Shown here in pieces: positions 36,945 through 49,880 of a stretch of 64,000 nucleotides of DNA. The notes below the pieces were generated by a model. It made no database searches. It saw nothing but the letters and a program-made list of their open reading frames with translations, and was not told the DNA's origin. The position numbers and the translations under genes are program-made. The stretch lies in assembly GCA_905182305.1 (NCBI GenBank), contig CAJJBB010000007.1:62001-126000 (forward strand), written 5' to 3'. Source of the stretch: Flavobacteria bacterium MS024-2A. GTDB taxonomy: Bacteria; Bacteroidota; Bacteroidia; Flavobacteriales; Flavobacteriaceae. Positions within the stretch are counted from its first letter, which is position 1; every line of letters begins with the position of its first letter.

Positions 36945-37163
36945 ATGGATTATTACCAAAAGAGAAAAAGAGAAATTGTTGAGGCAATATTATCAACCAT
37001 AAGTACCATTAGAGATAATGAATATAGCACTATAGAAAATGCTTTTGACAGATTTGAGCTAGAAGGAGCAAAACATGTAACAAACATTGGACAAAATACT
37101 TTCAACGAAGTAATTATCGATGCTCTTGATGAAGTGAAAATAACAGTAGAAAAAAGTTTATGA
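36945..37163 (+). CDS. Hypothetical 72-residue protein
   Basis: A soluble, charged, helical frame starting MDYYQKRKREIVEAILSTIS, with no signal or membrane segment. No family is recognised. It stands alone in the accessory region and codon use looks coding. Confidence 0.45.
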   Translation: MDYYQKRKREIVEAILSTISTIRDNEYSTIENAFDRFELEGAKHVTNIGQNTFNEVIIDALDEVKITVEKSL

Positions 37164-37261
37164 AACTAAACAATTTTATAACATGGTGTTAGTTCTAAAA
37201 TAATTTAACATTATCGAATAAAGAGATTTATCTCATTGCTTCTTATAGTCATATTAGTTAA

Positions 37262-37390
37262 TTAGAGACGACCTAAAATATAACCAACTAAAAAAGCAAT
37301 TAGAACTAAAACTCTCAGTTCAACTCCTAGACTTTTAGCAATTGAATCGACTATTTTAAGCACTGTAATTTTTATTTTTTCTAGATCCAT
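37262..37390 (-). CDS. Possible 42-residue membrane protein
   Basis: The minus-strand ATG at 37390 opens MDLEKIKITVLKIVDSIAKS, then an acidic/basic hinge and a hydrophobic C-terminal helix VLVLIAFLVGYILGRL. An amphipathic helix plus one transmembrane helix is a common small-protein design. It lies just downstream of another small membrane protein gene on the same strand. Confidence 0.45.
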   Translation of the reverse strand: MDLEKIKITVLKIVDSIAKSLGVELRVLVLIAFLVGYILGRL

Positions 37391-37455
37391 ATGATTAGTT
37401 TTTTAAGCTTAAAGTTTTAATTACACCTCCTTTTTAGTCTTCCAGTTATAGGCTC

Positions 37456-37626
37456 TTATTTAAGAACATATTGGATTATTAATGTCGCGATTACACCCCA
37501 TAAAAACGCAAATAGAGCAAAGCCAAACAAGCCTAATTTTTCAAGCAACCACAAATTAATTTTAAACCTTAAGGGTATGGCTCTATCAAACCATTTTTTC
37601 TTAAATGTCACTGAATTTGTTTCCAT
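37456..37626 (-). CDS. Small membrane protein, 56 residues
   Basis: Started at the ATG at 37626 (METNSVTFKKKWFDRAIPLR) it has a basic N-terminal part and one long hydrophobic helix (LFGFALFAFLWGVIATLIIQ). A start seven codons upstream at 37647 is also possible. Function is unknown. It probably belongs with the next small minus-strand frame. Confidence 0.5.
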   Translation of the reverse strand: METNSVTFKKKWFDRAIPLRFKINLWLLEKLGLFGFALFAFLWGVIATLIIQYVLK

Positions 37627-37755
37627 TGTGTTAGTTTTTTCAAACACTTAAATGTAATGATACTTATTTATAATTCAAAAATCACATCTCTAATAGCCTT
37701 ATTTTAACTTACCGTAGAGATGATATACCAGTAGTTTAAATAAGGCTGAGTATGT

Positions 37756-38289
37756 TTAATATGGAAATTCTCCAACAAAATTACCTTGAGGACTATATCT
37801 AGCTACTACATATGTCTTGCCTGAGTCTGAAACAGCCATAGCGATTCCAACTTCAGTAGTGCTATTCCAAACCATTTGGGTGTAATGCCCTATTTCGTAA
37901 AAATCATTTTCTCCTGATAGAATTGGTGAATAGGTGTATAATTTAATTTCTTCATACCAAAGTTGAGATCCATTTCTAGCAGATGTTAGTGAATCTGTTG
38001 CAGATGTAAAATATAAATTTTCTCCTTGTCCAGTGCGCGTATCATTTTCAGAATGATACATTCTATCTTCTTTGGCCATTTGTAGTGCCCATTTTGACGC
38101 ATCTTTCGACAATGAAGATGACCACTTAAGATTTTCAACCCCCACTTCGGAACGTGCATTATTATGAATGATCAAGGCTTGGTCTATATCGTCTTGTGTT
38201 AGACCATAAAGATTTATAGTCAGTTCATCAGAATCCTTAGAACAGTTTATTAAAAAAAGAAGTAGAAGAGGGACAATAATTCCTTTCAT
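37756..38289 (-). CDS. CAP/SCP-domain lipoprotein
   Basis: The 177-residue lipoprotein (lipobox FLINC near residue 16) has a CAP domain with all key blocks: IIHNNARSEVG, GQGENLY, then HYTQMVWNSTTEVGIAM and YSPQGNFVGE. The two His and two Glu expected in the CAP cavity are present. Bacterial CAP proteins are secreted and of mixed or unknown function. Its promoter lies at 38312-38319 on the minus strand. Confidence 0.85.
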   Translation of the reverse strand: MKGIIVPLLLLFLINCSKDSDELTINLYGLTQDDIDQALIIHNNARSEVGVENLKWSSSLSKDASKWALQMAKEDRMYHSENDTRTGQGENLYFTSATDSLTSARNGSQLWYEEIKLYTYSPILSGENDFYEIGHYTQMVWNSTTEVGIAMAVSDSGKTYVVARYSPQGNFVGEFPY

Positions 38290-38311
38290 TTTATGTATGA
38301 TTAATGATCAC

Positions 38312-38319
38312 CAAATATA
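38312..38319 (-). promoter_or_regulatory. -7 box of the CAP gene
   Basis: On the minus strand the sequence reads GGATTTGTTATATTTGGTG, with the exact -7 box TATATTTG 22 bp before the ATG. The GGATTTGTTATATTTG core and the following ATTAATCAT leader are the same as in the repeated modules on the plus strand. Confidence 0.65.
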
Positions 38320-38454
38320 ACAAATCCTGAATAAACAATAATTTATCATTAGTAAGAACCGGGATATCTTATTACGGATCATTTAATAACCTTTAATTTA
38401 CTTCAAAGTCACCTATAAAAGAAATAAGGTTTTTATAATTATTATATTCATGCT

Positions 38455-39075
38455 ATGAAAAAACTAATTCTATTATTATTTATTCCACTTCTTTCTTTTG
38501 GACAATATAACAACCAAAGATTAGAATTATTAAAAACTCGTTTTATGGAAGTGAGCATGAAAGAAAATAAAGCTCTTTCTGAAATGTTGAAATCTAAAAG
38601 AATTAAACCAAATGAATATAAAGTTAGACTCGAAAAACTTAAGATTCAATTTTCTAAAACAAAATTTAGATTAAACAAAATTGCACCAAATATGTCAAAT
38701 CTAAACAAAATTTTATTAGACCCAGAAATAAGATTTAAAAACAATAAATTTCAATTCAAGACAAAAAATAAGTGGTATTCAGATGTTGAATTGATCTCAT
38801 TTTTGATTAAAAATAAAGAAGCCAATTATTTAAATAAAAAGGACTCAAAGCAAATTACTGGTGATTTATATAACTCCAATTTGAAGTATTATTTTAAAAA
38901 TAAAAATTATCTGATATTTGAAAAACCAATTTCAACATCAAGAGTTATTCATAGAATTCAAGGGGGGTATTCTTTTCGAATTTTAGACAGAAGTAATTCA
39001 GATTATTTTTTCATTCAAACTGAAAAAAGAGAATTAGGGTATATTTTAAAAAACAAACTACCTGAAATAAATTAA
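38455..39075 (+). CDS. Hypothetical secreted protein, 206 residues
   Basis: A signal peptide (LILLLFIPLLSFGQ) is followed by a Lys-rich helical segment (about 20-80) and a mixed C-terminal part. No domain is recognised. The C-terminal stretch YSFRILDRSNSDYFFIQTEK could be an SH3-like fold (weak). It is divergent from the CAP gene. Confidence 0.5.
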   Translation: MKKLILLLFIPLLSFGQYNNQRLELLKTRFMEVSMKENKALSEMLKSKRIKPNEYKVRLEKLKIQFSKTKFRLNKIAPNMSNLNKILLDPEIRFKNNKFQFKTKNKWYSDVELISFLIKNKEANYLNKKDSKQITGDLYNSNLKYYFKNKNYLIFEKPISTSRVIHRIQGGYSFRILDRSNSDYFFIQTEKRELGYILKNKLPEIN

Positions 39076-39187
39076 ATCTTACTCTCTTAAAACAAACAAA
39101 CCAAAAGCATATTCTATTAAGCTAGTTATAGAATTCATTATGTTTTAGTATTATTTAATAACACAAATATTTTATGTAGATTAGCTT

Positions 39188-39220
39188 GAAACCAAAAGTA
39201 TATCATCTTCAGCAAGTTCA
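39188..39220 (+). repeat. Partial copy of the accessory-region module
   Basis: The sequence matches the 5' part of the module (AAACCA, then TATATCATCTTCAGCAAGTTC) but lacks the promoter half. It lies in the 245 bp gap before the gene at 39321, in which no gene was seen. Confidence 0.5.
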
Positions 39221-39320
39221 TGAAAAATACTATTTTAAAATTCTTTAGGTGATTATGTTTATTTGTAAATATTGATTTAAGGGGTTGTAACTTTACAACT
39301 AATCATTAATAATAAACAAC

Positions 39321-39545
39321 ATGGATAGCGAAACCTTTCATAAAATGGAGAAGTTTAAAAATCAGATAGATTTAAAAGTCAAAAGTGGAAAATATTCTCA
39401 TTATGTTTTAGAACAGTTTGATACTATAGGAGAATTATTTGGATTAAGCGAAAATTTATTGATAGAAGATTCTAATGAAGAGCATTATGATGAATTGAGT
39501 ATATATTTAATTAATAGCTTAGTCAAAGAAGTTTATAAAAAGTAG
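39321..39545 (+). CDS. Hypothetical 74-residue acidic protein
   Basis: A soluble, Glu/Asp-rich frame starting MDSETFHKMEKFKNQIDLKV, with no signal peptide. No family is recognised. The 5' region has a truncated repeat module. Confidence 0.45.
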   Translation: MDSETFHKMEKFKNQIDLKVKSGKYSHYVLEQFDTIGELFGLSENLLIEDSNEEHYDELSIYLINSLVKEVYKK

Positions 39546-39614
39546 AAAAACTCACAGAATGCAGATCTTATCGATTTTCATTATATTTAGATATTAACCA
39601 ATAAAAAAATTAAG

Positions 39615-40019
39615 ATGAAAAAGCTTCTTATATCCTTTGTTCTTGGGTTCATTACTTTTAGCATACTTGGTGGAATATTTGCATATTTAGTGTTCCTACC
39701 TGAATTTGCTATTTGGTATGAACTTCACCCTGACACCGTGAGAGGAACACCTGAATTAATTTCAGGAACTACTTTAGCGGTCATTCAATTAATTGCATTA
39801 GTTATTCTAATGGATAAACTTAAAATAGACACATTAAAAGGCGGTGCAATTTTCGGGATTATTTTTTCTGCTGTTTTATGGCTAATCATTGACCTTCAAA
39901 TGATATCTATGACTAATATTTTCTCTTATGATTATTTGTTAAAAGACACACTCCTTTCAGGAGTTCTTGGAGCATTTGGTGGACTAGTAATAGCTTGGTC
40001 TCAAAAAAAATATTCATAA
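39615..40019 (+). CDS. Four-helix membrane protein, 134 residues
   Basis: Four hydrophobic helices (about 4-30, 47-66, 77-95 and 110-128) with short loops, and PEFAIWYELHPDTVRGTPEL between the first two. It resembles small uncharacterised flavobacterial membrane proteins. A TATATTTA -7-like box lies about 30 bp upstream of the ATG. Confidence 0.55.
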   Translation: MKKLLISFVLGFITFSILGGIFAYLVFLPEFAIWYELHPDTVRGTPELISGTTLAVIQLIALVILMDKLKIDTLKGGAIFGIIFSAVLWLIIDLQMISMTNIFSYDYLLKDTLLSGVLGAFGGLVIAWSQKKYS

Positions 40020-40217
40020 AACGTATGTCATACTTATATAGTCTTTAGTAAGTTTTGAAATCTCTTATCTTTAATAAAACAAACTTTTTTTCGAATGAGT
40101 AGAAAAGTAAAACTATTTAGAAATTCATTTAGCCTATTGAAAGGACTTGTAAAAGTTCTTCGTTTTTCATCTTCAAAAACAAGGAGAGAAACTATGAAAG
40201 AAAGAAGAAGTAATAAC

Positions 40218-40505
40218 ATGAAAAAGCTAATCCTTATTTTTGTTTTTTGTTATCCATTTATGGGAATGAGTCAAAAGGCTTGTAATGTTTATGGGAAAAT
40301 AAAGTTTGTGGATTATGGAGAAGATTATAAAGTCAAATTTGTAAAATATGGGGAAGATTTGAGTATTAAATACGTTAACTATGGTGAGAAAAAAGGTGGT
40401 ACTTGGAAAGTGGTTGATTACGGGGAGGACTATAAGCTAAAGATTGTTAAGTATGGTGAAGATTTCACAGCTAAAGAAGTTGATTACGGAGAAGGGTGTA
40501 ACTAA
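40218..40505 (+). CDS. Secreted YGED-repeat protein
   Basis: Started at the ATG at 40218 it has 95 residues: a signal peptide (ILIFVFCYPFMGMSQ) and six copies of an 11-residue beta-strand-like repeat with YGED or YGEK at its core (VDYGEDYKVKF, VKYGEDLSIKY and so on). Two Cys, one near each end, could close the structure. The frame is open 41 codons further upstream to an ATG at 40095 (MSRKVKLFRNSFSLLKG), and the -7 box near 40065 fits that ATG better. Function is unknown. Confidence 0.65.
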   Translation: MKKLILIFVFCYPFMGMSQKACNVYGKIKFVDYGEDYKVKFVKYGEDLSIKYVNYGEKKGGTWKVVDYGEDYKLKIVKYGEDFTAKEVDYGEGCN

Positions 40506-40599
40506 ACCATAGGTATATCCTATTTATTAAGTTTTAGAATTTGTGGTTCTTTAACAATATTTATATGTTTGAGTATTATTAATCATAAACCAATTTAAA
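40505..40599 (+). repeat. Terminator-promoter module, copy D
   Basis: The copy runs from AAACCATAGGTATATC to the -7 box TATGTTTG (40564-40571), then GAGTATTATTAATCATAAAC, directly to the ATG of the gene at 40600. It is diverged in the middle compared with other copies but keeps the start, the -7 box and the leader. Confidence 0.6.
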
Positions 40600-41283
40600 A
40601 TGAAAAAAACACTTTTATTATTACTATTAATTTCTACTATGTCATTTGGACAGACTAGATATTGGACTTCCTATAACGTTACTATAGAGCCTCAAAATGT
40701 TAAAGCGGTATACAATCTTTTCGATGATTATTTTAAATCGAACCCCACTTCAGAGGATGTTAATGCTTATTTGTATGAAAATCATTTTAGAGATAATGAT
40801 AATAATTATACTCATTCATTTATTTGGGCGGGGAGCCTTGAAGGAATGGGAGCACAATATGCACCAAAAGAAAATAATTCTTGGGAATTGCTTATAACAA
40901 AAGCAAGCCAATTAATTAAAGAAACTCATAGTGCTACTATGGGAAACACCGTTGTAAATGTTGGTGAAAATAAGCCAATTCAAAGATATTTTTATTTAGA
41001 TGTTGAAGACCCTGAAAAATATTTAGTGGCTTTTAAAAAATCTCTTAAATACAGGTCTAAAGATCGTCAAACATTATTAGGAGGTTTTTCTGCTGGTCTA
41101 TCTCCAGATGGAGAAACTCATTGGGTTATTGTCGGATTTGATGACATGAAATCTGCAATGGATTCAGGTGCTTACAGAAGAAGCAATCCAGAAGCACAAA
41201 AGTCTTGGGAGGAATACCGAAAGAATAGAGGTAACACCCGCTTAGTAAGATCAGGACTACGTCTCTTAATGGGAAGCTGGTAA
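40600..41283 (+). CDS. Secreted two-domain alpha/beta-barrel-like protein
   Basis: The 227-residue protein has a signal peptide (LLLLLLISTMSFGQ) and two halves that each look like a ferredoxin-like alpha/beta unit: a strand (RYWTSYNVTI), a helix and later strand pair in the first, then RYFYLDVEDPEKYLVAFKKS and HWVIVGFDDMKSAMDSG in the second. It has the same size and layout as the genes at 44342 and 45257 and the broken gene at 33255. The family is recalled from marine flavobacteria but has no known function. Confidence 0.6.
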   Translation: MKKTLLLLLLISTMSFGQTRYWTSYNVTIEPQNVKAVYNLFDDYFKSNPTSEDVNAYLYENHFRDNDNNYTHSFIWAGSLEGMGAQYAPKENNSWELLITKASQLIKETHSATMGNTVVNVGENKPIQRYFYLDVEDPEKYLVAFKKSLKYRSKDRQTLLGGFSAGLSPDGETHWVIVGFDDMKSAMDSGAYRRSNPEAQKSWEEYRKNRGNTRLVRSGLRLLMGSW

Positions 41284-41308
41284 GTAAAAATTAATTTTAC
41301 GACTTTTC

Positions 41309-41335
41309 AACCCTCCCAAGCGGAGGGTTTTTCTT
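41309..41335 (+). terminator. Intrinsic terminator
   Basis: AACCCTCC and GGAGGGTT form an 8 bp stem with a 5-base loop followed by TTTCTTTT. It ends the transcript from 40600. The stem is nearly the same as the terminator at 33166. Confidence 0.85.
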
Positions 41336-41336
41336 T

Positions 41337-41399
41337 TAAACTACAGGCATATTATTTTCAGTAAAATTTGAGTTTTATATATTTGATTTAATGCTTTTT
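41337..41399 (+). repeat. Terminator-promoter module, copy E
   Basis: Starts AAACTACAGGCATATTATTTTC and ends in the -7 box TATATTTG just before the ATG of the ruined methyltransferase at 41400. The leader after the -7 box is short and lacks the ATTATTAATCAT element. Confidence 0.6.
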
Positions 41400-42346
41400 A
41401 TGAGAAAAATAATTGGCTTAATTATCTATGTTATTGTTCAAATACTTTTTATCCCATTTAGAATAATTGGAGCAGTAATTATATATTACAAACAAACATG
41501 TGTAATCAAGAAGTTAGGGGTCTCTTCAACGGTAATTGAGATAATCAATGGATAAATTTGGTTTAAGAAAAGACCAAGCAACAGTTAAATTATTTGATGC
41601 TTTACTCAGCACATCCGGATTTGGAATTTGGCTTACTCTTTTTCCGCTATATGTTTTAAAAAAAACAGCAGGTGAAAACCTTATATACTCAAAAATAAAA
41701 AAAGAAGGGAATGAGTCTTTAGCAAATCTAGTCACTTCAAGAACGGTTTATTTTGATGAATTATTAAACAAGTCTTTTAAAACAACGTCTCAATTAGTAG
41801 TAATGGGTTCAAGATTTGACACAAGGTGTTATGGTTCCATTGCTGAAAACGATATTGCTCTTTTTGAGTAAGATAAAAAAGAAACTCAAGAGCTTAAAAG
41901 AAAATATTTAAATCAAGCAAAAATAGACACATCTAAAGTTCATTTTACCAATGAAAACTGGAGTGAACAATTATATAAAGCAGGCTATGATAAAACTAGA
42001 AAAACAACTTTTTTGTGGGAAGGAGTTACTCTTTACCTTTCGAAAAAAGAGACACAAAAAAACCTAAAACAAATCAAAAAAAATGCTGCTGCTAGTAGTA
42101 TAATTATCGCAGATTTTTATGTTAATCAATTTGTTAATGGAGATGTTATTTCTAGTAAGAAAAAGTTAAAAAATACTAGAAAAAACGAATGAAGAACTTG
42201 GTTTTGGGATTGCTTTTGAGGGCAATGACTCAAAAGATCTTAAAGCCTTATTTAATATTGAAGAAATTACACCTGGGAAAATTTTCTATATAGGATACAA
42301 AACAAAAACAAGTACTTAGATGGCAGTAGTTAAATTAAAAATATAA
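41400..42346 (+). pseudogene. Broken LCMT-type SAM methyltransferase
   Basis: The pieces together match the flavobacterial class I methyltransferase of the leucine carboxyl methyltransferase family: an N-terminal membrane segment (MRKIIGLIIYVIVQILFIPF), then MDKFGLRKDQATVKL, LVTSRTVYFDELL, the SAM-loop VVMGSRFDTRCYG, KTTFLWEGVTLYLSKKE and a C-terminal FYIGYKTK. At least four lesions break it: a frame change near 41550, TAA at 41869-41871, a frame change near 42170-42188 and TAG at 42317-42319. All pieces keep family order, so this is a decayed gene and not chance. Confidence 0.8.
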
Positions 42347-42560
42347 CAACAGTAGAAATTATAAAATCTGAAGGTTGTCCTTTTTATTAAAATCATTTTA
42401 GGTATTGCCAAAAAAAATAGTTTTAGAAATGAAAAATGTAAATGGCACTAATTGAATTTAGCAACGTTTTCTATTAACTCTTTTGCTTAATCTTAATTAT
42501 AGTAGAAGAAAACCAAATTAAAAAAGTATTTACTAATTAAATTTCCTGAAAAGCAAGCAA

Positions 42561-42755
42561 TTAACGCGCTCTATTTTTCACATCTTTATTTGGTACTCTA
42601 CCTTGATTTCCTATTCCGTCAAAATCACTTGAATCATATGAATTCATATTTTCTTTACGCTGAATTTTATGTTGTTTTCTGACGATTGTCAGGAGAAAAT
42701 AAACGTAAACAACAAATATTATTACTCCTATGATAAACATAATTTGGTTTTTCAT
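42561..42755 (-). CDS. Small membrane protein, 64 residues
   Basis: One N-terminal transmembrane helix (IMFIIGVIIFVVYVYFLLTI) is followed by a basic then mixed tail. Its ATG overlaps the stop of the upstream small membrane protein by 4 bp, so the two are translationally coupled. Function is unknown. The 200 bp between here and the methyltransferase remnant show nothing recognisable. Confidence 0.5.
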   Translation of the reverse strand: MKNQIMFIIGVIIFVVYVYFLLTIVRKQHKIQRKENMNSYDSSDFDGIGNQGRVPNKDVKNRAR

Positions 42756-42937
42756 TGCCCGGAATTTTTATCATCACTTCTTCTTTGTCTTATAACAAAT
42801 GCAAAAGCAAGAATAGTTACTGGCCATAGACCTACATATACGCCTTCAAGCTGATTGCCTGAAAACCACAAATAAATTGAATATAAAAAACTTAAAAAAG
42901 CAAGTATTACAGGGTAGTATTTTTCTACAAAAATCAT
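42752..42937 (-). CDS. Small membrane protein, 61 residues
   Basis: Two hydrophobic helices (VILAFLSFLYSIYLWFSG and VYVGLWPVTILAFAFVI) with a charged C-terminus. It forms a coupled pair with the downstream 64-residue protein. Function is unknown. Confidence 0.5.
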   Translation of the reverse strand: MIFVEKYYPVILAFLSFLYSIYLWFSGNQLEGVYVGLWPVTILAFAFVIRQRRSDDKNSGQ

Positions 42938-42978
42938 TTTTATTGAAAGTTAATAAAATTAATTATAATAAATGTTTT

Positions 42979-43047
42979 TAACCACGGGGATATTATCCTG
43001 AATAGGTTTTAGGATTTGTTATATTTGAATGTTATTAATTTATTTTA
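42979..43047 (+). repeat. Terminator-promoter module, copy F
   Basis: Runs from ACCACGGGGATATTATCC through GGATTTGTTATATTTGAATG (exact -7 box at 43020-43027) to the ATG at 43048. A further degenerate 5' half of the module (AAGCCACAGGTC) sits at about 43384, after that gene. Confidence 0.65.
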
Positions 43048-43368
43048 ATGAATTCTCCTTTTATTGCAGTTTTAATTTCAGATATAATTTTTATGGCAAT
43101 TGCTTTAGGCTTAAATAAAGAAAATGCTAAATATCTTTTGAGCGGTTATAACACTATGTCAAAAAAGGAAAGAGAAAATTTTGATATTGCAAACTATCTA
43201 ATACTTTTTAAAAAGTTTTTTTTAATACTCGCAGCATCTTCAACTATTGTATTTACTATTTTAATTAATTTACTGAATGCAAAAATTGCAGTGATATCTT
43301 ATTCTTCATATTTAATTATTATGCTAATTTGGTTTGTGTTTAAGGGAAATAAGTTTAAAATAAAATAG
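43048..43368 (+). CDS. Membrane protein, 106 residues
   Basis: Three hydrophobic helices (about 3-20, 52-70 and 78-98) with a charged loop KKERENFDIANYLILFKKFF. This resembles small DUF3784-like proteins, but the match is loose. It is driven by module copy F. Confidence 0.5.
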   Translation: MNSPFIAVLISDIIFMAIALGLNKENAKYLLSGYNTMSKKERENFDIANYLILFKKFFLILAASSTIVFTILINLLNAKIAVISYSSYLIIMLIWFVFKGNKFKIK

Positions 43369-43430
43369 TTATAATTTTCATTTAAGCCACAGGTCTAACA
43401 TCTTTAATGATTATATCTTATTCAATAAGA

Positions 43431-44168
43431 TTACTTTCTTGAGTTTAGTTTTGTAAGTAATCTCAATATTTCAAGATACAACCAAATAAGGGTAACTAAT
43501 AAACCGAAAGCTCCATACCATTCCATATATTTTGGAGCACCTTTTTCAGCACCCTCCTCTATAAAATCAAAATCTAAAACTAAATTTAGAGCAGCTATTA
43601 CTACTACAACAATACTAAATCCAATACTAAATGGAGATGCATTATTTATGCTCATAACACCAAGACCTGAACCAAAAAAGCCCATTATAAAGTTTACCAT
43701 GTATATTATAGCAATACCTCCTGTTGCAGCAAATATTCCAAGTTTAAAATTTTCAGTAGCTTTTATATAGCCAGACCGATAAACAATTAATAATGAAACT
43801 AATATCCCAACCGTTAAAAGGATAGCATTTGTTACAATGCCATCATATAAAGAGTTGTACATATAAGATATCCCTCCCAACATAGCACCCTCCAGTATTG
43901 CATAAATAGGGACAGTAACTGGAGCCCATTCTTTTTTAAAAAAAGTAATAATAGCAAAAACAAAACCCCCTATTCCACATCCAATTAGCAAGACGGGATT
44001 GATTGTATTAAAAGTTAAATAGCCTGCACCTATAAGCAGGAAAAGACTTATTGCTGTTTTATTTACAGTCCCCTCAATAGTCATTTTATTATCACCAGAA
44101 ATGGTGTTATTGAAAGTTTTTTTTGAAAGAACAGGATTACCTGACCTTATGGATAGATGGCTATTCAT
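43431..44168 (-). CDS. Bax inhibitor-1/YccA family membrane protein
   Basis: The 245-residue protein has seven hydrophobic helices after a soluble N-terminus. The segments FKKEWAPVTVPIYAILEGAM then LGGISYMYN, and the C-terminal ALNLVLDFDFIEEGAEKGAP then KYMEWYGAFGLLVTLIWLYL, are signatures of the YccA-like BI-1 family, including the acidic pair thought to sense pH or calcium in BsYetJ. Its role here is unknown. It is a core-type gene sitting inside the accessory region. Confidence 0.88.
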   Translation of the reverse strand: MNSHLSIRSGNPVLSKKTFNNTISGDNKMTIEGTVNKTAISLFLLIGAGYLTFNTINPVLLIGCGIGGFVFAIITFFKKEWAPVTVPIYAILEGAMLGGISYMYNSLYDGIVTNAILLTVGILVSLLIVYRSGYIKATENFKLGIFAATGGIAIIYMVNFIMGFFGSGLGVMSINNASPFSIGFSIVVVVIAALNLVLDFDFIEEGAEKGAPKYMEWYGAFGLLVTLIWLYLEILRLLTKLNSRK

Positions 44169-44262
44169 AATAAGTTTTTAATAGTAAAATTTGAATAGCA
44201 AAGATATTAGGTTCAAACAAATTAGACTCTAATTGGTGCATTAAGATTTAAACGGGATTTCT

Positions 44263-44341
44263 TAAATCAAAGTCATATCATCTTTAGTGAATTTCGGGAT
44301 TTATTATATTTGAATATTATTAATCATAAATTAATTTAAAA
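44263..44341 (+). repeat. Terminator-promoter module, copy H
   Basis: Starts AAATCAAAGTCATATCATC, continues with the -7 box TATATTTG at 44305-44312 and the leader ATTATTAATCATAAATTA, and ends at the ATG at 44342. This is a well preserved copy. Confidence 0.7.
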
Positions 44342-45109
44342 ATGAAAAAATTATTATTTGTATTTACTTTTATTATTGGACTTCATTCTTATGGACAGTC
44401 AACAGTAATTTTGGCAATGGTTCTTGAAGAAGGAAAAGAAGACGCTTATTTAAAAATGGAAGCGAATTGGCAAAAAGTAAATGAAGCTGCGGTTGCTCGA
44501 GGACTCATTACACAATGGTCAGTATGGAAAAGAACGCCTAGAGAAGGAGATGAAGGTTGGGCTGAGTACTTCGTAATGATAAGAAGTAATGCTGAACAAG
44601 AAAAGATGGCAATGTCAGTATCTGATTGGGAAAAACTATCTTATAAAGTTTTCAAAGGAAAAAGTAAAAAATCAACAGATAAGAGACTTTCAAGCAAAGG
44701 AATTGTTAAAGAAATGAGAAGTAGAACCTATAAACTTGTAACCACTACGGGCTGGAGAGGACTTGAATGGGAATTGGGAGACAAAGCCTATTTTCATTAT
44801 ATGACTAAAAAAAATGATGACTTTATTGCTTATGAAACTGCAGTATGGAAACCAATAGCTCAACAAAGAATTCTTGATGGATATCTAAAATATTGGGGAA
44901 TTAGTGAACTAGTTTATTCGAATGATATCACAAAAGAATTGAAATCAACCTCAACTCATATAGCATTTAATTTTCCTACTAAAAAGAAAAATCAAGAAGT
45001 CTTTAAATCACCTGAAGACTTTCTTAGTAAAAAAGCTGAAGAAGCACTTTTGAGTTCAAGAGATATGTTACCGGCTGAAGAATTAACTTTAATTTATTCA
45101 ACATTCTAA
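44342..45109 (+). CDS. Secreted two-domain alpha/beta-barrel-like protein
   Basis: The 255-residue protein has a signal peptide (FTFIIGLHSYGQ). The first half (VILAMVLEEGKEDAYLKMEA, then TQWSVWKRTPREGDEGWAEY) and the second half (AYFHYMTKKNDDFIAYETAV, then YLKYWGISELVYSND) each look like an antibiotic-biosynthesis-monooxygenase or stress-responsive alpha/beta barrel unit. It is paralogous in layout to 40600 and 45257. It is preceded by module H and followed by a terminator of the CGTCACT type. Confidence 0.6.
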   Translation: MKKLLFVFTFIIGLHSYGQSTVILAMVLEEGKEDAYLKMEANWQKVNEAAVARGLITQWSVWKRTPREGDEGWAEYFVMIRSNAEQEKMAMSVSDWEKLSYKVFKGKSKKSTDKRLSSKGIVKEMRSRTYKLVTTTGWRGLEWELGDKAYFHYMTKKNDDFIAYETAVWKPIAQQRILDGYLKYWGISELVYSNDITKELKSTSTHIAFNFPTKKKNQEVFKSPEDFLSKKAEEALLSSRDMLPAEELTLIYSTF

Positions 45110-45134
45110 ATAAACACTTTTTTAAGTAACCCTT

Positions 45135-45166
45135 ACGTCACTAATTAACTTAAGTGGCGTTTTTTT
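45135..45166 (+). terminator. Intrinsic terminator, CGTCACT type
   Basis: ACGTCACT and AGTGGCGT pair around a loop that contains TTAA-rich sequence, followed by seven T. The same stem recurs at 46971 and 47621, each time directly ahead of a repeat module. Confidence 0.8.
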
Positions 45167-45256
45167 AAACCACAGACATATCAGCTATAGTAAGTTTTGG
45201 GATTTGTGATTCCAATGAAATTCTATATGGTTGAGTATTATTAATCATAAATTAAA
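45165..45256 (+). repeat. Terminator-promoter module, copy I
   Basis: Starts AAACCACAGACATATCAGC, has an insertion in the middle, and its -7 region reads TATGGTTG in place of TATATTTG, a mismatch. The leader GAGTATTATTAATCATAAATT is intact and leads to the lost start of the gene at 45257. Confidence 0.7.
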
Positions 45257-46051
45257 ATAAAAAATATTTTTACAGTTTTAGGGTTGTTCCTTGTAAGCTT
45301 TTTAATGGCACAGTTTATCGCTAGCATTGCTTATTATAAAGTTCCAAGACAAGAAGCAGCTCAATTTATTCGCTTGTATCAAAAGTTTACTGACCTTTCA
45401 TCCTCTGAAGATTGCTTATTACGTGGAGGAGGGGTTTTTGCTCATGTCCATGCTTATAATTACACCTATGTTTCCTACGATTTTTATGATAGTGTTTCAG
45501 ATCTTGAAAAAGATGGGCCAACTGCCTCGGCAGCACTTAAGAAAAATATCGATGCATTAAAACTTTCCAAAAAAGATAAAGAAGCATTGACTAAGTAATA
45601 CCGAAAGTACAGTAGGATGATTTATTATAATCATCATGACCAAATAAGGATGGCAAATCCTGAGATGGGTTGGAATGTTCAATCAGCTGATTGGACTAAG
45701 AAAAAAATCACAGCACTTTCTAAATTTAAAATTAAAGAAGGGATGCAAGATCAGTTTTTTGATGGTTGGAAAAAAGGTGAATTTAAAAACAAAAAAGAAA
45801 GTGGCTTTGTAGAAGCCATTACAGGATCTTGGCATTTGTATGGGGAAGGTGATTATATTCATGTTTACACCTTTTTCGACAGCTGGGATAACTTTGCTTC
45901 TTTCGAAAAAGCATGCAGCTATGATGTGACCAAGGATATGGGTGAAAACGAGAAGAAATTTTGGTCTACTGTCGAAACACATGAAGATGAAATATTAATG
46001 TTCATAGGAGGAATAGACCAAACAACAGGAAAGTTTTACTTCGCGAAGTAA
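45257..46051 (+). pseudogene. Secreted two-domain protein with lost start and in-frame stop
   Basis: The frame starts at an ATA (45257-45259) where the paralogues have ATG, followed in frame by a perfect signal peptide (KNIFTVLGLFLVSFLMAQ). The only conventional start left is a TTG at 45284 inside the signal. At codon 114 a TAA (45596-45598) interrupts the frame, which then continues for 150 codons with clearly coding sequence (FKIKEGMQDQFFDGWKKGEF, then HVYTFFDSWDNFASFEKA). Both halves resemble the alpha/beta units of 40600 and 44342. Start loss, stop and a weakened -7 box together indicate a dead gene. Confidence 0.75.
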
Positions 46052-46093
46052 AAATATAGTTAAACGAGACGTATTTTAAAGGACTATCTGAAG

Positions 46094-46119
46094 ACCCCTT
46101 TTAATCGAGGGGTTTTTTT
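46094..46119 (+). terminator. Intrinsic terminator
   Basis: ACCCCT and AGGGGT form the stem, followed by seven T. It lies about 40 bp after the end of the broken gene and 14 bp before a short gene. Confidence 0.8.
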
Positions 46120-46132
46120 GTAACTTTGGGGC

Positions 46133-46234
46133 ATGAAAAAGTGGAGTACGCCAGGTCAGATTATTTTTCAAGGCTTTCTTATTATTGTTGTATTAGTTGC
46201 ATACAACCTTTATACGGGTAGACTTTCATTCTAA
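46133..46234 (+). CDS. 33-residue single-pass membrane protein
   Basis: MKKWSTPGQIIFQGFLIIVV then LVAYNLYTGRLSF: a basic N-terminus, one hydrophobic helix and a short tail. An exact -7 box TAACTTTG (46121-46128) ends 4 bp before the ATG, so the mRNA would be nearly leaderless. The size, helix and promoter make it a likely real small gene. Confidence 0.55.
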   Translation: MKKWSTPGQIIFQGFLIIVVLVAYNLYTGRLSF

Positions 46235-46272
46235 TATTGTGAGAACAAAAATAATTCCTAATGGAAGTTTTC

Positions 46273-46315
46273 TTTTAAACCACAGGGACATCACCTTCAG
46301 TAAGGTTCTGGCATA
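46273..46315 (+). repeat. Terminator-promoter module, partial copy J
   Basis: The 5' half (AAACCACAGGGACATCACC then TTCAGTAAGGTTCTGG) is well kept, but the promoter half is replaced by unrelated sequence before the gene at 46419. Confidence 0.6.
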
Positions 46316-46418
46316 CAATATACTTTTCCAAGAATCAAACAAGCTACTAATTAAGTAAGTTAAGACTTGCCTTTGTGATAGTTTGAGTTGTATATTTAAC
46401 TTTCTTAAAATCAACACA

Positions 46419-46925
46419 ATGAAAAAAATATTTTTATTATGTCTTCCATTTTTAACAGTTATTCTGTTTTCCTGTCAAGGCACGGACAATGATCCAAAAC
46501 CTAATCTTAAATACCAAAAGAATTTATCAACAGCAAAAAAGTTTTTTGAACTTTTTTTAACTGAAGACCTTGATGCTCAAATACCTTTAATATGTCCTGG
46601 AGTAACACATTATCCTCCATTTTATGGTTCTGAGCCTGGAAATTATGATGCTTTTGTAGCAGCAGGAAAAGGATGGATGGACAATTTTGATGAAATAACA
46701 TACAATGCGGAAGTTTGGTTAGCAGGTACTGATTCATTAGGTGTTTTTGATGGAAGCGTAAGAACATATGGCTCCTGGAGTGCTAAAAACTCAAATACAG
46801 GAAATATGATACAAAATAGAGCGTATCATTCTTTTGAATTTAATGATGCAGGGCAAATCCACGAATTAAGAGACTATTTTGATGCTAGTGGAGCAATGAA
46901 TGCAGCGTTGGTTTCAGAAGAATAA
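46419..46925 (+). CDS. SnoaL/NTF2-like lipoprotein
   Basis: The ATG at 46419 gives a lipoprotein signal (FLTVILFSC) and a mature part of about 150 residues with the SnoaL-like pattern: helix FFELFLTEDLDAQIPLIC, then GSEPGNYDAFVAAGKGWMDN, DGSVRTYGSWSAKNS and YHSFEFNDAGQIHELRDYFD then ASGAM. The upstream open frame to 46383 is not part of the protein. It is closely similar in plan to the next gene at 47080. Function is unknown; the fold often binds small hydrophobic ligands. Confidence 0.7.
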   Translation: MKKIFLLCLPFLTVILFSCQGTDNDPKPNLKYQKNLSTAKKFFELFLTEDLDAQIPLICPGVTHYPPFYGSEPGNYDAFVAAGKGWMDNFDEITYNAEVWLAGTDSLGVFDGSVRTYGSWSAKNSNTGNMIQNRAYHSFEFNDAGQIHELRDYFDASGAMNAALVSEE

Positions 46926-46970
46926 TTTACTAAATAGAGTTTTAAATAATTACTATTTATTAAACCAATA

Positions 46971-47004
46971 ACGTCACTAGTTAGTTTTAGTGACGTTTTA
47001 TTTT
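46971..47004 (+). terminator. Intrinsic terminator, CGTCACT type
   Basis: ACGTCACTA and TAGTGACGT form a perfect 9 bp stem, followed by TTTATTTT. It ends the SnoaL-like transcript and directly abuts module copy K. Confidence 0.85.
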
Positions 47005-47079
47005 AAACCAAGTACTATTATCTTCAGTAAGTTCTAAGGTTTGTTATATTTGAGTACTATTAATCCTAAATTAATTAAA
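47001..47079 (+). repeat. Terminator-promoter module, copy K
   Basis: Starts TTTTAAACCAAGTACTATTA, continues TCTTCAGTAAGTTC, then the -7 box TATATTTG (47045-47052) and the leader ATTAATCCTAAATTAATT, and ends at the ATG at 47080. Confidence 0.7.
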
Positions 47080-47583
47080 ATGAAAAAATATTTAATTATT
47101 GCATTAGCAATGACAACACTTATTTCTTGTAATTCAAATGCCGATATGTCATTATTTAAAGAGAATAAAGAAATAGCTAAAAAATATCTCGCTTCTTATG
47201 AATCGCCAACAGACTATGAAAATTTTGTTTCTATGACCGATGAAAAAATTGAGCATCAATCCCCAATGTATGGATCTGGAATGGTCGGATACAAAAAAGT
47301 TTTGGATCAAGGGAATTTCTATATGTCAAATTTTTCGGATGTTTCTTTTAATGACGCGAGATGGCTTCCGGGTGTTGATGAAGAAACCCTTAAGGCAGAT
47401 GGTAGCGTTAGAGTTTATGGTACTTGGAAGGGAGTTAGTAATGCTTCTGGTAAAAGTTTTTCTATTGACAGTTATCACTATTTTGTGATTAAAGAAGGTA
47501 AAATTGTTCAATCTGGAGATTTTATGGATGCTACGGGAATGGTTATGGCTGTAGAACCAGATTCTCAAGAAGAAATTGAATAA
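47080..47583 (+). CDS. SnoaL/NTF2-like lipoprotein, second copy
   Basis: The ATG at 47080 gives a lipoprotein signal (LAMTTLISC) and a body paralogous to the preceding gene: EHQSPMYGSGMVGYKKVLDQ, DGSVRVYGTWKGVS, SYHYFVIKEGKIVQSGDFMD then ATGMV. The 167-residue length matches its neighbour. Tandem duplication followed by divergence is the simplest history. A terminator of the same CGTCACT type follows. Confidence 0.7.
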   Translation: MKKYLIIALAMTTLISCNSNADMSLFKENKEIAKKYLASYESPTDYENFVSMTDEKIEHQSPMYGSGMVGYKKVLDQGNFYMSNFSDVSFNDARWLPGVDEETLKADGSVRVYGTWKGVSNASGKSFSIDSYHYFVIKEGKIVQSGDFMDATGMVMAVEPDSQEEIE

Positions 47584-47620
47584 TTTCACTTTTTAAAGAA
47601 GTAGATATATTATAATTATC

Positions 47621-47652
47621 AACGTCACTAATTAACTTTGGTGGCGTTTTCT
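47621..47652 (+). terminator. Intrinsic terminator, CGTCACT type
   Basis: AACGTCAC and GTGGCGTT form an 8 bp stem with one G-T pair, followed by TTTCTTTT. It abuts module copy L. Confidence 0.8.
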
Positions 47653-47700
47653 TTTAAACCACAGGCATATCATCTTCATTAAGTTCTGGGATTTATTGTT
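47652..47700 (+). repeat. Module copy L, left border of a 2.1 kb segment
   Basis: TTTTAAACCACAGGCATATC then ATCTTCATTAAGTTCTGGG. Together with the preceding GGCGTTTTC it is identical over about 35 bases to copy M at 49784, and the two copies enclose the 47.7-49.78 kb segment in direct orientation. The promoter half is lost: the sequence turns into a T run at 47700. Confidence 0.7.
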
Positions 47701-47837
47701 TTTTTTACCTTTATAAGGCATCAAGAACGCATAATCCGTACCAACCGATCTTCTCGAGACACGGTGGTTTAGAATACGAGACGCTCGTCTAAAACAATCG
47801 AGAAATCATACTCATCTTGGTCATAAATGACGTTTAA
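47701..47837. other. Stretch with unusual composition, no gene
   Basis: From about 47715 to 47790 the sequence is richer in G and C than its neighbours and contains small inverted repeats (ACGAG/CTCGT). A short plus-strand frame reads NPYQPIFSRHGGLEYETLV before a stop. It looks like a fragment of foreign coding sequence, not identified. Confidence 0.35.
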
Positions 47838-48119
47838 TTAAAAAAACTCTTCTTCGATTTTTTTAAAATCAAGACTACTTATATCTATTTTTTGTCCTTT
47901 TTTTGGATTAATTTTTATGACCAGGTTTAAATAGTCTACCTTATAAAATATAATTATGGATTGGAAAAAATCCTTAGTCACTTCTTTCAATTTGATGTAA
48001 CATAAAAATTTCTTAAAAGAGTATTTTTTGGCTATTAAAAAAATTTTATCCTTTTTGTTTTGAACAATATTTTACGCTCCATAAGTTTTTTTTACAATGC
48101 CTTCAGCTATTTTTTACAT
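47838..48119 (-). pseudogene. Dead small gene with two in-frame TAA codons
   Basis: On the minus strand an ATG at 48119 is followed at once by TAA, then KIAEGIVKKTYGA, another TAA (48072-48074), and then 77 codons of coding-like, Lys-rich sequence (IFLIAKKYSFKKFLCYIKLK, later NPKKGQKIDISSLDF) to a stop at 47838. Replacing each TAA by AAA (Lys) would give an intact protein of 93 residues starting MKKIAEG. Two single-base changes of the same kind suggest gene death. The family is not recognised. Confidence 0.55.
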
Positions 48120-48144
48120 CAAGGTATTACTTAAATTATAAATT

Positions 48145-49287
48145 ATGTTAATATCAAAAATGGGTGTTATAGGTACTTCCAGAAAAGAAGATGAACGTCG
48201 TGTTCCCATTCATCCAGAACATTTAAAAAGACTTCCAGATGACATTCGAAAACATCTTATATTCGAAGAGGGCTACGGTCTTCCGTTTAATGTTTCTGAT
48301 GAAGAAATTATTGGGCAGACTGGCGGTATGGCTCCAAGAGGATCTCTATTGTCAGATATTGGTAATGTTATTATTGCAAAACCATTAGCATCAGATTTAA
48401 GAGCTGTTAAATTAGGAGGAGTAGTTTGGGGCTATCCTCATTGCACACAACAAGTAGAAATTACGCAAATAGCCATTGACCGTAAACTTACGTTAATAGC
48501 ATTTGAAGATATGTTTGTTTGGAAACCTGATGGAACTATGGGTCGCCATACCTTTTATAAAAACAATGAAATGGCAGGTTATAGTGCTGTTATTCATGCC
48601 CTTCAACTTAAGGGTATTGACGGACACTATGGCAATCAAAGAAAAGTAATCATCTTTAGTTTTGGTGCCGTTAGTAGGGGTGCTATATACGCTTTAAAGG
48701 CTCACGGTTTTAGAGATATTACAATTTGTATTCAAAGACCTGATCATGAAGTAAGAGAAGAGGTATTGGATGTAAATTATACTCGAATTGAAAAAGGAGG
48801 CTTAAACGAATCTAGGTTAAAGGTAGTAGAGCACGACGGGAAAGAACGACCACTTATAGATTTGATTGGAGAGTCTGACATTATCATCAATGGAACTTAT
48901 CAAGATACTAACGACCCGATAGATTTTGTTATTGAAGATGAAAAAGATAGGATGAAACCTGGCGCCTTAATAATTGATGTAAGTTGTGACCAAGGAATGG
49001 GTTTTTATTTTGCTACTCCCACTACTTTTAAAGAACCTATTCTTAAAATTGAACAAATTGATTATTATGCTGTAGATCATACCCCAAGTTATTTTTGGGA
49101 AAGTGCTTCTAGATCAATTTCTGCAGCATTAATCGTTCATCTAAAAGCTGTTATGCAAGGCCATATAGGATGGCAAAAAAATATTACTATTAAAAATGCG
49201 ATTAACGTTTCCAATGGAGTTGTGTTGAAAGATGAAATTTTAGATTTTCAATATCGTCAAAAAAAATATCCTCATCTATTTCTTTAA
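48145..49287 (+). CDS. N5-(carboxyethyl)ornithine synthase-like NAD(P) oxidoreductase
   Basis: The 380-residue protein of the alanine dehydrogenase/pyridine nucleotide transhydrogenase superfamily starts KMGVIGTSRKEDERRVPIHP (substrate-binding domain), then VWGYPHCTQQVEITQ, FYKNNEMAGYSAVIHALQLK, a Rossmann segment FSFGAVSRGAIYAL and DVSCDQGMGFYFATPTTF with YYAVDHTPSYFWESAS. This order matches enzymes annotated as N5-(carboxyethyl)ornithine synthase, which join pyruvate to ornithine reductively. The substrate here is inferred only. An internal ATG at 48160 is an alternative start. It lies inside the segment bounded by modules L and M. Confidence 0.75.
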   Translation: MLISKMGVIGTSRKEDERRVPIHPEHLKRLPDDIRKHLIFEEGYGLPFNVSDEEIIGQTGGMAPRGSLLSDIGNVIIAKPLASDLRAVKLGGVVWGYPHCTQQVEITQIAIDRKLTLIAFEDMFVWKPDGTMGRHTFYKNNEMAGYSAVIHALQLKGIDGHYGNQRKVIIFSFGAVSRGAIYALKAHGFRDITICIQRPDHEVREEVLDVNYTRIEKGGLNESRLKVVEHDGKERPLIDLIGESDIIINGTYQDTNDPIDFVIEDEKDRMKPGALIIDVSCDQGMGFYFATPTTFKEPILKIEQIDYYAVDHTPSYFWESASRSISAALIVHLKAVMQGHIGWQKNITIKNAINVSNGVVLKDEILDFQYRQKKYPHLFL

Positions 49288-49291
49288 AAAA

Positions 49292-49537
49292 ACTCTATTT
49301 ACTGGATTCGAACATGCATTATTTGTATCAGAAAGAGACAAGGGAGATTACAATAACCTGCATGTACATATGCTTATTGACACTAATACAGACATGACCT
49401 ATCAAGAAGTTAAGTATGGACTTGGTAATGTTTCTGTTGGAGACTATCAACCAGTCTATGATAAAGAAGAGGTTTGAAAATATGTTTCTAAACATATAGG
49501 TAAAGATGTGGATTATGACATTGTATTTAAAAGCTAA
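49292..49537 (+). pseudogene. Fragment of an HUH-type rolling-circle replication protein
   Basis: A frame with one internal TGA (49475-49477) and no start encodes FEHALFVSERDKGDYNNLHV then HMLIDTNTDMTYQEV, and after the TGA KYVSKHIGKDVDYD. NLHVHMLI is an HUH metal-binding motif and YVSKHIGK resembles the catalytic Tyr motif of Rep endonucleases from small plasmids and phages. Only about 82 codons remain, so the gene is truncated as well as interrupted. It begins 5 bp after the synthase-like gene. Confidence 0.6.
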
Positions 49538-49783
49538 AAACTTCTAAGGCATCTTTAATCCAAAAACAGGGGCATGGGTTTTCTAGAATCGTTTTTTATT
49601 TAGATACGGCTTCTTCTATCTAGTATATAACCTAAAACCTTAGCATATAAGACACTACATACGTTGAATTTTAAATATTCTATCTAATGTGATTACAAAC
49701 AGATTATTAGAGATTTATTAAGTGGGGTTTTCCTTAGTATGTTTTTTTATGTAGGGGTGTAATCCAAACTCTCTTAGTTAGGG
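49538..49783. other. Intergenic stretch without a gene
   Basis: AT-rich sequence between the Rep fragment and module copy M. No coding frame of note was seen. The last 25 bases (CTCTTAGTTAGGGGCG) are the right half of a decayed CGTCACT-type terminator. Confidence 0.4.
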
Positions 49784-49880
49784 GCGTTTTCTTTTAAACC
49801 ACAGGCATATCATCTTCTGTAAGTTCACAGATTTGTGATTTTTCAATTAATTTTTTATGTTTAAAGTATTATTAATCAAA
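49784..49880 (+). repeat. Module copy M, right border of the 2.1 kb segment
   Basis: GGCGTTTTC then TTTTAAACCACAGGCATATC and ATCTTCTGTAAGTTC are shared with copy L. A decayed promoter part and the leader AAGTATTATTAATCAAAAT follow, ahead of a short gene at 49918. Confidence 0.7.

Follow-up and report, generated by a model that had tools for sequence, protein, structure and literature searches.

A 31-bp repeat in a marine Flavobacteriales genome: probable attachment site of an integron-like gene-cassette system

Introduction

A short sequence recurs in front of a series of different genes in a 64,000 nucleotide stretch of DNA from Flavobacteria bacterium MS024-2A (the window). What is this sequence, and how did it come to stand beside these genes? 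The first-pass annotation described it as a terminator-promoter module and proposed gene gain or shuffling by recombination in the repeat, or tandem duplication with gene replacement. Integrons are the standard bacterial gene-cassette platform. The analysis given here suggests that the module is probably the attachment site of an integron-like gene-cassette system driven by a tyrosine recombinase.

Results

The repeat unit

The nine full copies of the module and the partial one are all present, each within 12 bp of where the first-pass annotation had placed it. The shared core is 31 bp in length, AAACCACAGGCATATCATCTTCAGTAAGTTC, and past it conservation falls to background within a few bases. 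The repeat is real, yet "terminator-promoter module" does not describe its main part. The promoter and leader are a separate part that is carried by many cassettes, and the common part is the core, not the terminator-promoter-leader whole. The ATTATTAATCATAAATT leader follows many copies but is absent after those at 41338, 46277 and 47656. The CGTCACT-stem terminator precedes the copies at 45167, 47004 and 47656; the others have a different terminator or, at 40504, directly follow a stop codon. There is shared sequence outside of the −7 box, thus the copies are not just ordinary Bacteroidetes promoters.

A weight matrix search of the window displays ten core copies (scores 12.5 to 51.5) and one doubtful copy, all on the plus strand (Table 1), and none in the reversed window. 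No core is found on the minus strand of the window at a score of 4 or more. The two additional plus-strand matches are at 39098 (14.5) and 40025 (5.8, discounted). The copy at 39098 is considered doubtful because it is 91 bp before the 39189 core and its conservation elsewhere was not found. A 19-mer pattern with up to 3 mismatches has 8 matches in the window (0.01 expected), of which the one at 37719 is on the minus strand. Genome-wide there are 48 matches, compared with 0 for the reversed pattern. These are spread over several contigs, and thus the window represents one array among several.

Table 1. Sites and cassette genes of the array in the window (positions are those of the window).
Feature	Position	Strand	Score or similarity
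Site (31-bp core), 5′ end of array	39189–39219	+	score 35.7
Site, starts at stop codon of upstream gene	40504–40534	+	score 32.0; next-gene homology with G007 from 40503
Site after terminator with TTTTTCTTTT	41338–41368	+	score 25.6
Degenerate site before DUF3784 gene	42979–43009	+	score 12.5 (lowest accepted); recurs at equivalent position in G007 (L088 3464)
Site; G007 syntenic block stops just before, at 44260	44264–44294	+	score 26.6
Site after CGTCACT-stem terminator	45167–45197	+	score 29.1
Long-form site (core 46277–46307)	46277–46376	+	score 34.8; 90% identity to 102-bp long form
Degenerate site, apparently indel-shifted, after CGTCACT-stem terminator	47004–47034	+	score 14.3
Near-perfect consensus site; upstream-cassette homology with G006 ends at 47687	47656–47686	+	score 51.5
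Near-perfect consensus site	49796–49826	+	score 50.9
Doubtful degenerate site copy	39098–39128	+	score 14.5
Cassette gene, 136 aa, no Pfam family	40095–40505	+	G007 homolog on another contig
Cassette gene, 227 aa, signal-peptide-like start	40600–41283	+	in G007 located behind BaxI gene
DUF3784 protein	43048–43368	+	PF12650, E = 2e-13
Bax inhibitor-1-like gene, opposite to array	43431–44168	−	PF12811; between sites in G007 and G021 also
Cassette gene, 255 aa	44342–45109	+	homologs in G008, G023 and at another place in G000
One cassette, two adjacent ORFs (104 + 144 aa)	45284–46051	+	–
Cassette gene, weak SnoaL-like match below Pfam cut-off	46413–46925	+	PF12680, E = 0.0011
Cassette gene, weak SnoaL-like match below Pfam cut-off	47080–47583	+	PF07366, E = 0.00019
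Alanine dehydrogenase/PNT-like gene, between last two sites	48145–49287	+	PF01262, E = 2e-12

The short site showed no strong inverted arms. For eighty site windows of 43 nt taken at random, folding was no better than for their mononucleotide-shuffled versions (mean z 0.39), and on this measure an attC-like hairpin was rejected for the short site. The long form (102 bp) consists of the site and about 65 bp that resemble the 3′ end of a small open reading frame, for which there is no Pfam or PHROG match. The ends of the long form are weakly alike in inverted order (the score is reached by 4 and 5 of 2000 shuffles), and thus the hairpin rejection covers the short site, not the long form. A MITE with terminal inverted repeats is disfavoured as a reading of the long form, whose right-hand portion belongs to the end of the small open reading frame. 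A search of the window against Rfam gave no family for the repeat; the sole hit above threshold is a SAM-I/IV riboswitch.

Distribution of the site

A 23-bp part of the core has 359 matches in 35 of the 38 genomes of the genus, compared with 1 for the reversed pattern. At a score of 12 the weight matrix, which was trained on the same 154 partly overlapping loci (1.135 Mb), gives 273 sites in these loci and 1 in the reversed control. The data are mostly metagenome bins in which chimeras are possible, and several contigs end at sites.

Outside the genus, 6 of the 21 recombinase-bearing genomes have any 23-mer match and three have at least three (G076, G142 and G336). At the 3-mismatch level, three or more matches are also found in at least five recombinase-free genomes (G231, G357, G309, G299 and G084). 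The link between recombinase and site outside the genus is loose. In favour of a link, among the matches listed outside the genus those at 0 or 1 mismatch are only in G076, G336 and G212.

Cassette content and exchange

Most intervals between sites are short units. Exactly one same-strand gene of at least 60 aa is found in 107 of 152 site-to-site intervals (the median of the longest is 176 aa), and 18 of the 152 have no same-strand open reading frame of that length. Among the 225 non-redundant sites, 120 have 1.5 kb on each side, and at 91 of these the upstream neighbour is co-oriented with the site; the comparable figure for random intergenic points is 117 of 280. A scan of 114 cassette proteins shows matches to 38 different Pfam families. 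This argues against tandem duplication with gene replacement as the main pattern, and a single precise duplicate was seen, a cassette that is present twice in G001. None of the 114 proteins matches a PADLOC defence model at 1e-5.

Homologous cassettes are found in different contexts in different species, with ends at sites, and this directly established site-to-site homology gives good support to the proposal of gene gain or shuffling by recombination in the repeat. The earlier interpretation is thus partly supported overall. There are 46 homologous interval pairs, and 21 of these align over 85% of both members. Both outer flanks are at background in 13 of the 21, and at least one is in 19 (background is 0.66 or less; random 60-mers give 0.51). 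These 13 clean pairs do not count as independent cases, as five come from one cassette family and two from another. Their right sites are more alike than their left sites in 10 pairs and less alike in 2. Like attC, the site tends to stay with the gene upstream of it. A 338-bp cassette is 97% identical in G050 and G049 and has unrelated flanks. A cassette common to G055 and G001 has right sites that agree at 30 of 31 positions and left sites that differ at 9, and the cassette bodies match from the first base after the left site. The window cassette at 47080–47583 is also found in G042 (87.6%), in another context.

Relatives do not keep a fixed gene order: of ten genomes compared, G007 is the closest, and its order is not that of the window. 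Not all differences are at sites. The cassette gene at 44342 and its homologs show differences in the promoter region just 3′ of the site, and the window and G007 differ over a stretch of 2.9 kb whose ends, at 39558 and 42449, are away from sites.

A tyrosine recombinase with the site at its 3′ end

In reverse complement, the core corresponds to the final codons of a gene that is found in relatives and encodes a tyrosine recombinase of about 350 aa. The site forms the 3′ end of the gene in all nine array-type genes examined (eight full-length and one split). Conservation here is directly seen at the DNA level: where two genes encode the same amino acid, they use the same codon in 163 of 200 pairs (82%) within the final 11 codons, in 412 of 603 within the preceding 24, and in 2096 of 4266 (49%) in the remainder of the gene.

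The cassette row runs into the recombinase 3′ end in L154, L156 and L157, and sites are found on both sides of the gene in L153, L155 and L159. Where an array meets the gene, the two are convergent. With sites that had been chosen for similarity, all 17 in L154, L155 and L156 match their own recombinase, but only 3 of 11 in L153, L157 and L159 do so.

The protein is assigned to the tyrosine recombinase family from a PF00589 match (E = 8e-11) on a 234-aa part. It displays invariant Arg, Lys, Arg, His, His and Tyr columns (A1), which we take to be the catalytic residues. The structure prediction is weak (pLDDT 72, pTM 0.43) and gives the general fold only. Of four array-type recombinases, three score 19.7–28.3 bits with the IntI model TIGR02249 (cut-off 265) and the fourth is not listed. 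None of the 38 genus genomes has an IntI above the curated cut-off, and the matches found are weaker ones.

Any piece of the recombinase (E ≤ 1e-4) is present in 16 of the 38 genus genomes, and open frames of at least 348 aa are found in five. The assembly of the window's genome (86.5% complete) has no full recombinase gene and keeps one remnant (L011 14886). The arrays of this genome may therefore be inactive, either in need of the missing gene or fossils. Among eight recombinases of other families, four have a 3′-end site at a score of at least 8; those of family f7 (L192, L193, L194 and L195) have no site at that score in the 3′ end.

Discussion

Proposed cassette system

In the system proposed here a cassette would consist of a promoter, a gene, an optional terminator and the 31-bp site at the 3′ end of the gene, and cassettes would stand head to tail in arrays. 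In relatives the array can meet the convergent recombinase gene, whose last codons, as a copy of the site, would be in an attI-like position. The recombinase is the putative driver of cassette movement. It would exchange two sites near their 3′ end, and by such exchange cassettes may be excised as circles and then reinserted.

The chances appear about even that this is an independently evolved integron analogue of streamlined marine Flavobacteriales, with a recombinase other than IntI or XerCD and an insertion site in the last codons of the recombinase. Each insertion beside the gene would then need to keep the C-terminus of the enzyme intact. A second such platform, unrelated in its site and its recombinase, would mean that the design arose more than once. 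It would also hint at how small ocean bacteria maintain a shifting repertoire of accessory proteins, often secreted ones, and the site would be a marker for cassettes in marine metagenomes. No description of such a system was found in the literature searched, which was one collection of open papers; a description may exist elsewhere.

Other explanations

The arrays may instead be relics of accretion, in which a small recombinase-bearing element inserted repeatedly at its own end sequence and most copies left only the recombinase 3′ end. The arrays would then be CIME-like scars, and the single genes cargo or trapped host genes. This appears unlikely. Several sites do keep about 30–75 recombinase codons (e.g. 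L042 1480, 2769 and 6013; L105 333; L106 8937), and one recombinase remnant is present in the window's genome. Recombinases of other families with few or no surrounding sites, and a recombinase near genes read as type I restriction-modification in L190 and L195, are also consistent with such an element. However, most copies in the window's genome retain only about 31–39 bp of the recombinase gene, and the intervals are short, mostly single-gene, and recur in unrelated contexts with site-to-site boundaries.

Homologous or illegitimate recombination between intergenic repeats, by natural DNA uptake and with no dedicated enzyme, is improbable. A site of just 31 bp that is the recombinase 3′ end throughout the array-type genes and is conserved at the codon level argues against it, as do the differing left sites of the G055 and G001 cassettes, whose bodies match immediately beyond. 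In its favour, terminator stems and promoter leaders are also common to cassettes, some breakpoints fall within the promoter region or outside the sites, and the window's genome assembly has no full recombinase gene. The repeat could also be a regulatory element, the operator or leader of a secreted-protein regulon, given that a TAnnTTTG promoter and leader follow many copies and precede genes with signal-peptide-like starts. This is very improbable, since in clean pairs it is the upstream gene that the site tends to accompany, the next open reading frame is on the opposite strand at 27 of 119 sites, and the sequence encodes the recombinase C-terminus in relatives.

Comparison with known systems

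Several known agents of gene movement were rejected. The XerC and XerD models give 21–33 bits on the array-type recombinases (cut-offs about 330), which on the recombinase side argues against a Xer/dif system. A serine resolvase as the mover was rejected because only 2 of 38 genomes have one. A phage origin had no support from IMG/VR scans or phage records: neither the site nor the long form, searched in exact form, has a match in IMG/VR, none of 8 pattern matches from the IMG/VR recombinase scan was confirmed, and phage records display only about 24% identity to the recombinase.

Neighbouring pdif sites are inversely oriented, whereas the sites here are direct repeats, and a dedicated recombinase has the matching sequence at the 3′ end of its gene. 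Small modules bounded by short tyrosine-recombinase sites are common to both. In Acinetobacter, small gene modules between short XerCD sites are reported to be rearranged there, with inversions as well as deletions; these dif modules are described mainly on plasmids and use the host XerCD (PMC13141974).

GInts are likewise a case in which tyrosine recombinases move varied cargo to specific sites, with direct repeats at either end. They differ in having an operon of four genes, ginABCD, which includes three putative integrases, and a cargo of 2.5 to at least 70 kb (PMC5385486).

The arrays share their tandem segments between sites, and their recombinase remnants, with CIMEs. CIMEs are products of accretion in which the segments are bounded by att sites of one integrase. 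Here, the units are mostly single-gene and there are dozens of sites per genome (G000 and G007).

By the tests made, the system is not an integron. The recombinase is not IntI, its TIGR02249 scores being far below 265, the short site has no hairpin, and many cassettes have a promoter of their own. The recombinase gene is convergent with the cassettes and has the array site within the 3′ end of its coding sequence. Integron-type arrays that have no integrase are known as CALINs. As in integrons, the cassettes are in head-to-tail order, most of them have a single gene, and each has its site at the 3′ end; the arrays stand beside a tyrosine recombinase gene or occur without one, and cassettes are common to several species.

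The repeat and its 31-bp site

The repeat reported by the first-pass annotation is present in the window, where a 19-mer taken from it has eight copies (up to three mismatches) against 0.01 expected; genome-wide there are 48 copies and none of the reversed pattern. The shared part of the aligned copies, termed here the site, is 31 bp in length. Conservation is at background level within a few bases 3′ of it, and a T-run on its 5′ side is common to the copies only partly. The annotation had placed a promoter box and leader within the shared unit; the 31-bp core is indeed common, but promoter and leader are distinct from it and are present in many, not all, of the downstream units. A weight matrix, trained on the extracted loci themselves, gives 273 sites at score 12 versus 1 in reversed sequence (154 partly overlapping loci, 1.135 Mb). 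At a score of 4 or more there are 12 sites in the window, all on the plus strand, and none in the reversed window. Position 40025 (score 5.8) was discounted as a site, and 39098 (score 14.5) is doubtful as a copy.

A long form of about 102 bp is also found, with many copies in the window's genome and in relatives; 16 of 41 matches in the own genome are near full length by hand count. It consists of the site followed by about 65 bp that match the 3′ end of a 70-aa open reading frame, which has no match in Pfam or PHROG. The end of the long form weakly resembles the site in inverted order (4 and 5 of 2000 shuffles reach the score).

Features located in the window and in loci of the genus
Feature	Location	Observation
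19-mer match	window 37719–37737, minus strand	three mismatches, under matrix threshold; directly 3′ of the stop of minus-strand gene 37756–38289; perhaps a decayed site in opposite orientation
Gene fragments	window 41548–42320	between two sites; resemble a broken methyltransferase gene
Long form	window 46277–46376	
SAM-I/IV riboswitch	window 47713–47807	Rfam RF01725, 43.9 bits (gathering score 41.1); a little way past a site, ~340 bp 5′ of an alanine dehydrogenase/PNT-like gene; a regulatory RNA within a cassette-like unit
70-aa ORF, complete copy	L009 12780–12992	
Recombinase remnant, 40 bp	L011 14886	adjoins a site; the one remnant in the window's genome
Cassette gene pair	L156 1081–3996	adjacent genes (505 and 442 aa) beside the recombinase; C-terminal sequences almost identical; look like a duplication
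Serine resolvase gene	L010 (G000:C5:187898–188323)	PF00239, 98 bits; close to cassette sites; family detected in no more than 2 of the 38 genomes of the genus

Cassettes and arrays

Neighbor strands were counted at 120 of 225 non-redundant sites, those with enough context. The upstream neighbor is on the same strand at 91 of 120 sites (117 of 280 random intergenic points) and the downstream neighbor at 92 of 119 (155 of 280). In the chosen loci, 152 site-to-site intervals of 200–2000 bp contain one same-strand gene of at least 60 aa in 107 cases, two in 25, three in 2 and none in 18. Of 134 cassette proteins 114 were scanned, the 20 left out being mostly short. These represent 38 Pfam families, the most frequent having five members; none matches PADLOC, and 79 display a secretion-like N-terminus by a simple in-house hydrophobicity rule.

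The recombinase gene ends in the site

In several relatives the opposite strand of a site copy runs on into an open frame ending in MGHSSINVSLTYLRGLEIPELTEEDMPVV and a stop codon, or similar. The frame encodes the C-terminal end of a tyrosine recombinase (PF00589) of about 350 aa. Full-length genes occur in G017, G021, G045, G049, G015, G053 (two) and G057, and G010 has a split one. In each of these nine genes the site makes up the 3′ end. Eight aligned sequences show 49%–79% identity to the first and are almost invariant in the C-terminal part. Where residues are the same, codons are most often identical over the last 11 (163/200), compared with 412/603 over the preceding 24 and 2096/4266 in the remainder, which fits selection acting on the DNA. 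Eight more distant recombinases of other families, retrieved with the profile of this one, were examined as well: the site (score 8 or more) is in the 3′ end of four (L190, L191, L197, L199) and is not found there in the other four, all of family f7.

Sites of one orientation follow each other up to the recombinase 3′ end at L154, L156 and L157; none was seen past the gene, although the contig stops shortly after it in L156 and L157. At L153, L155 and L159 sites flank the recombinase on both sides. The assembly of the window's genome has no gene for this recombinase. A weak predicted model of the protein has a tyrosine-recombinase fold; its N-terminal strand-strand-strand-helix part, which is given no weight, may be an arm-binding domain, a domain associated with phage and ICE recombinases in PMC8138268.

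Probable movement of cassettes

Among ten genomes that were compared with the window's, G007 is the nearest, one core gene being 95% identical in DNA. Window blocks 36634–39558 and 42449–44260 are in the same order there, and the latter stops just 5′ of site 44264; the inner block ends, 39558 and 42449, show no recognizable sites. The gene 40600 (227 aa) is also present in G007, located there behind a Bax inhibitor-1-like (BaxI) gene, with homology starting at 40503, one base ahead of the site. This difference in gene order, together with the recurrence of cassettes between unrelated flanks, gives good support to the suggested shuffling of genes at the repeat.

A hand count of the table gives 46 homologous interval pairs among the selected loci, 25 of which were set aside since the aligned part was below 85% of either interval. 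Among the remaining 21, both outer flanks are at background in 13 and at least one flank in 19; the 13 clean pairs are not independent, five being of the 44342 family (a 255-aa cassette gene) and two of the BaxI interval. The clearest cases include a 338-bp unit (97% identity, G050 versus G049) and a 273–279-bp unit (95%, G049 versus G046), both with unrelated flanks. G001 has one unit in two copies, 98.6% identical over 629 bp, where the match runs to the final base of the right site and the sequences are unrelated from there on. In a cassette shared by G055 and G001 the left sites have nine differences, the bodies agree from the following base onward, and the right sites are equal at 30 of 31 positions. 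Among the clean pairs, 10 have greater similarity between their right sites than between their left ones and 2 have less, which suggests that a site is as a rule part of the cassette of the gene upstream of it. The stretch just 3′ of the left site diverges in the 44342 family (inner identity 0.45–0.72), pointing to exchange in or near the promoter as well.

Distribution

A 23-mer of the site has 359 matches (table sum) in 35 of the 38 genomes of the genus, which we infer to be MS024-2A-like; the control has 1. For a 30-base form, 14 named stretches are from bins labelled Flavobacteriaceae, Flavobacteriales, Cryomorphaceae and once MS024-2A. Across the order, 135 of 391 genomes have a 23-mer match, mostly one or two each and at three mismatches, a search in which the reversed control also yields matches. 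The recombinase (E ≤ 1e-30) is found in 21 of 395 genomes; the 23-mer matches in six of these, at three or more places in G076, G142 and G336. A count of three is also reached by at least five genomes that lack the recombinase. Outside the genus, places with 0 or 1 mismatch are in G076, G336 and G212 only, among the matches listed, and all three have the recombinase. In G034 and G420 (L190, L195) the recombinase is without an array and near genes read as type I restriction-modification; thus an island integrase may have been the origin of the family.

Proposed mechanism and comparison with known systems

Beside the observed sites, arrays, cassette boundaries and site-ended recombinase gene, the mechanism would be one where the recombinase exchanges two sites, thereby excising or inserting single cassettes, and the site copy inside its own gene would serve as insertion platform.

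Tyrosine recombinases at G018:C55, G047:C66 and G006:C46 (L109, L110, L111) are nearer the integron-integrase model than is the array recombinase; their best stretches score 113–131 bits, under the cut-off of 265.

The proposed cassette system would work like an integron, and its site, like attC, goes mostly with the gene upstream. However, two defining features of integrons that were tested are absent: the recombinase is not over the IntI model cut-off and, unlike attC, which folds, the short site fails the attC folding test. The system is therefore regarded as another variant among gene-cassette systems rather than an integron. The dif modules, as described in PMC13141974, likewise have short sites; in contrast to these, the system here has its own recombinase and direct-repeat sites.
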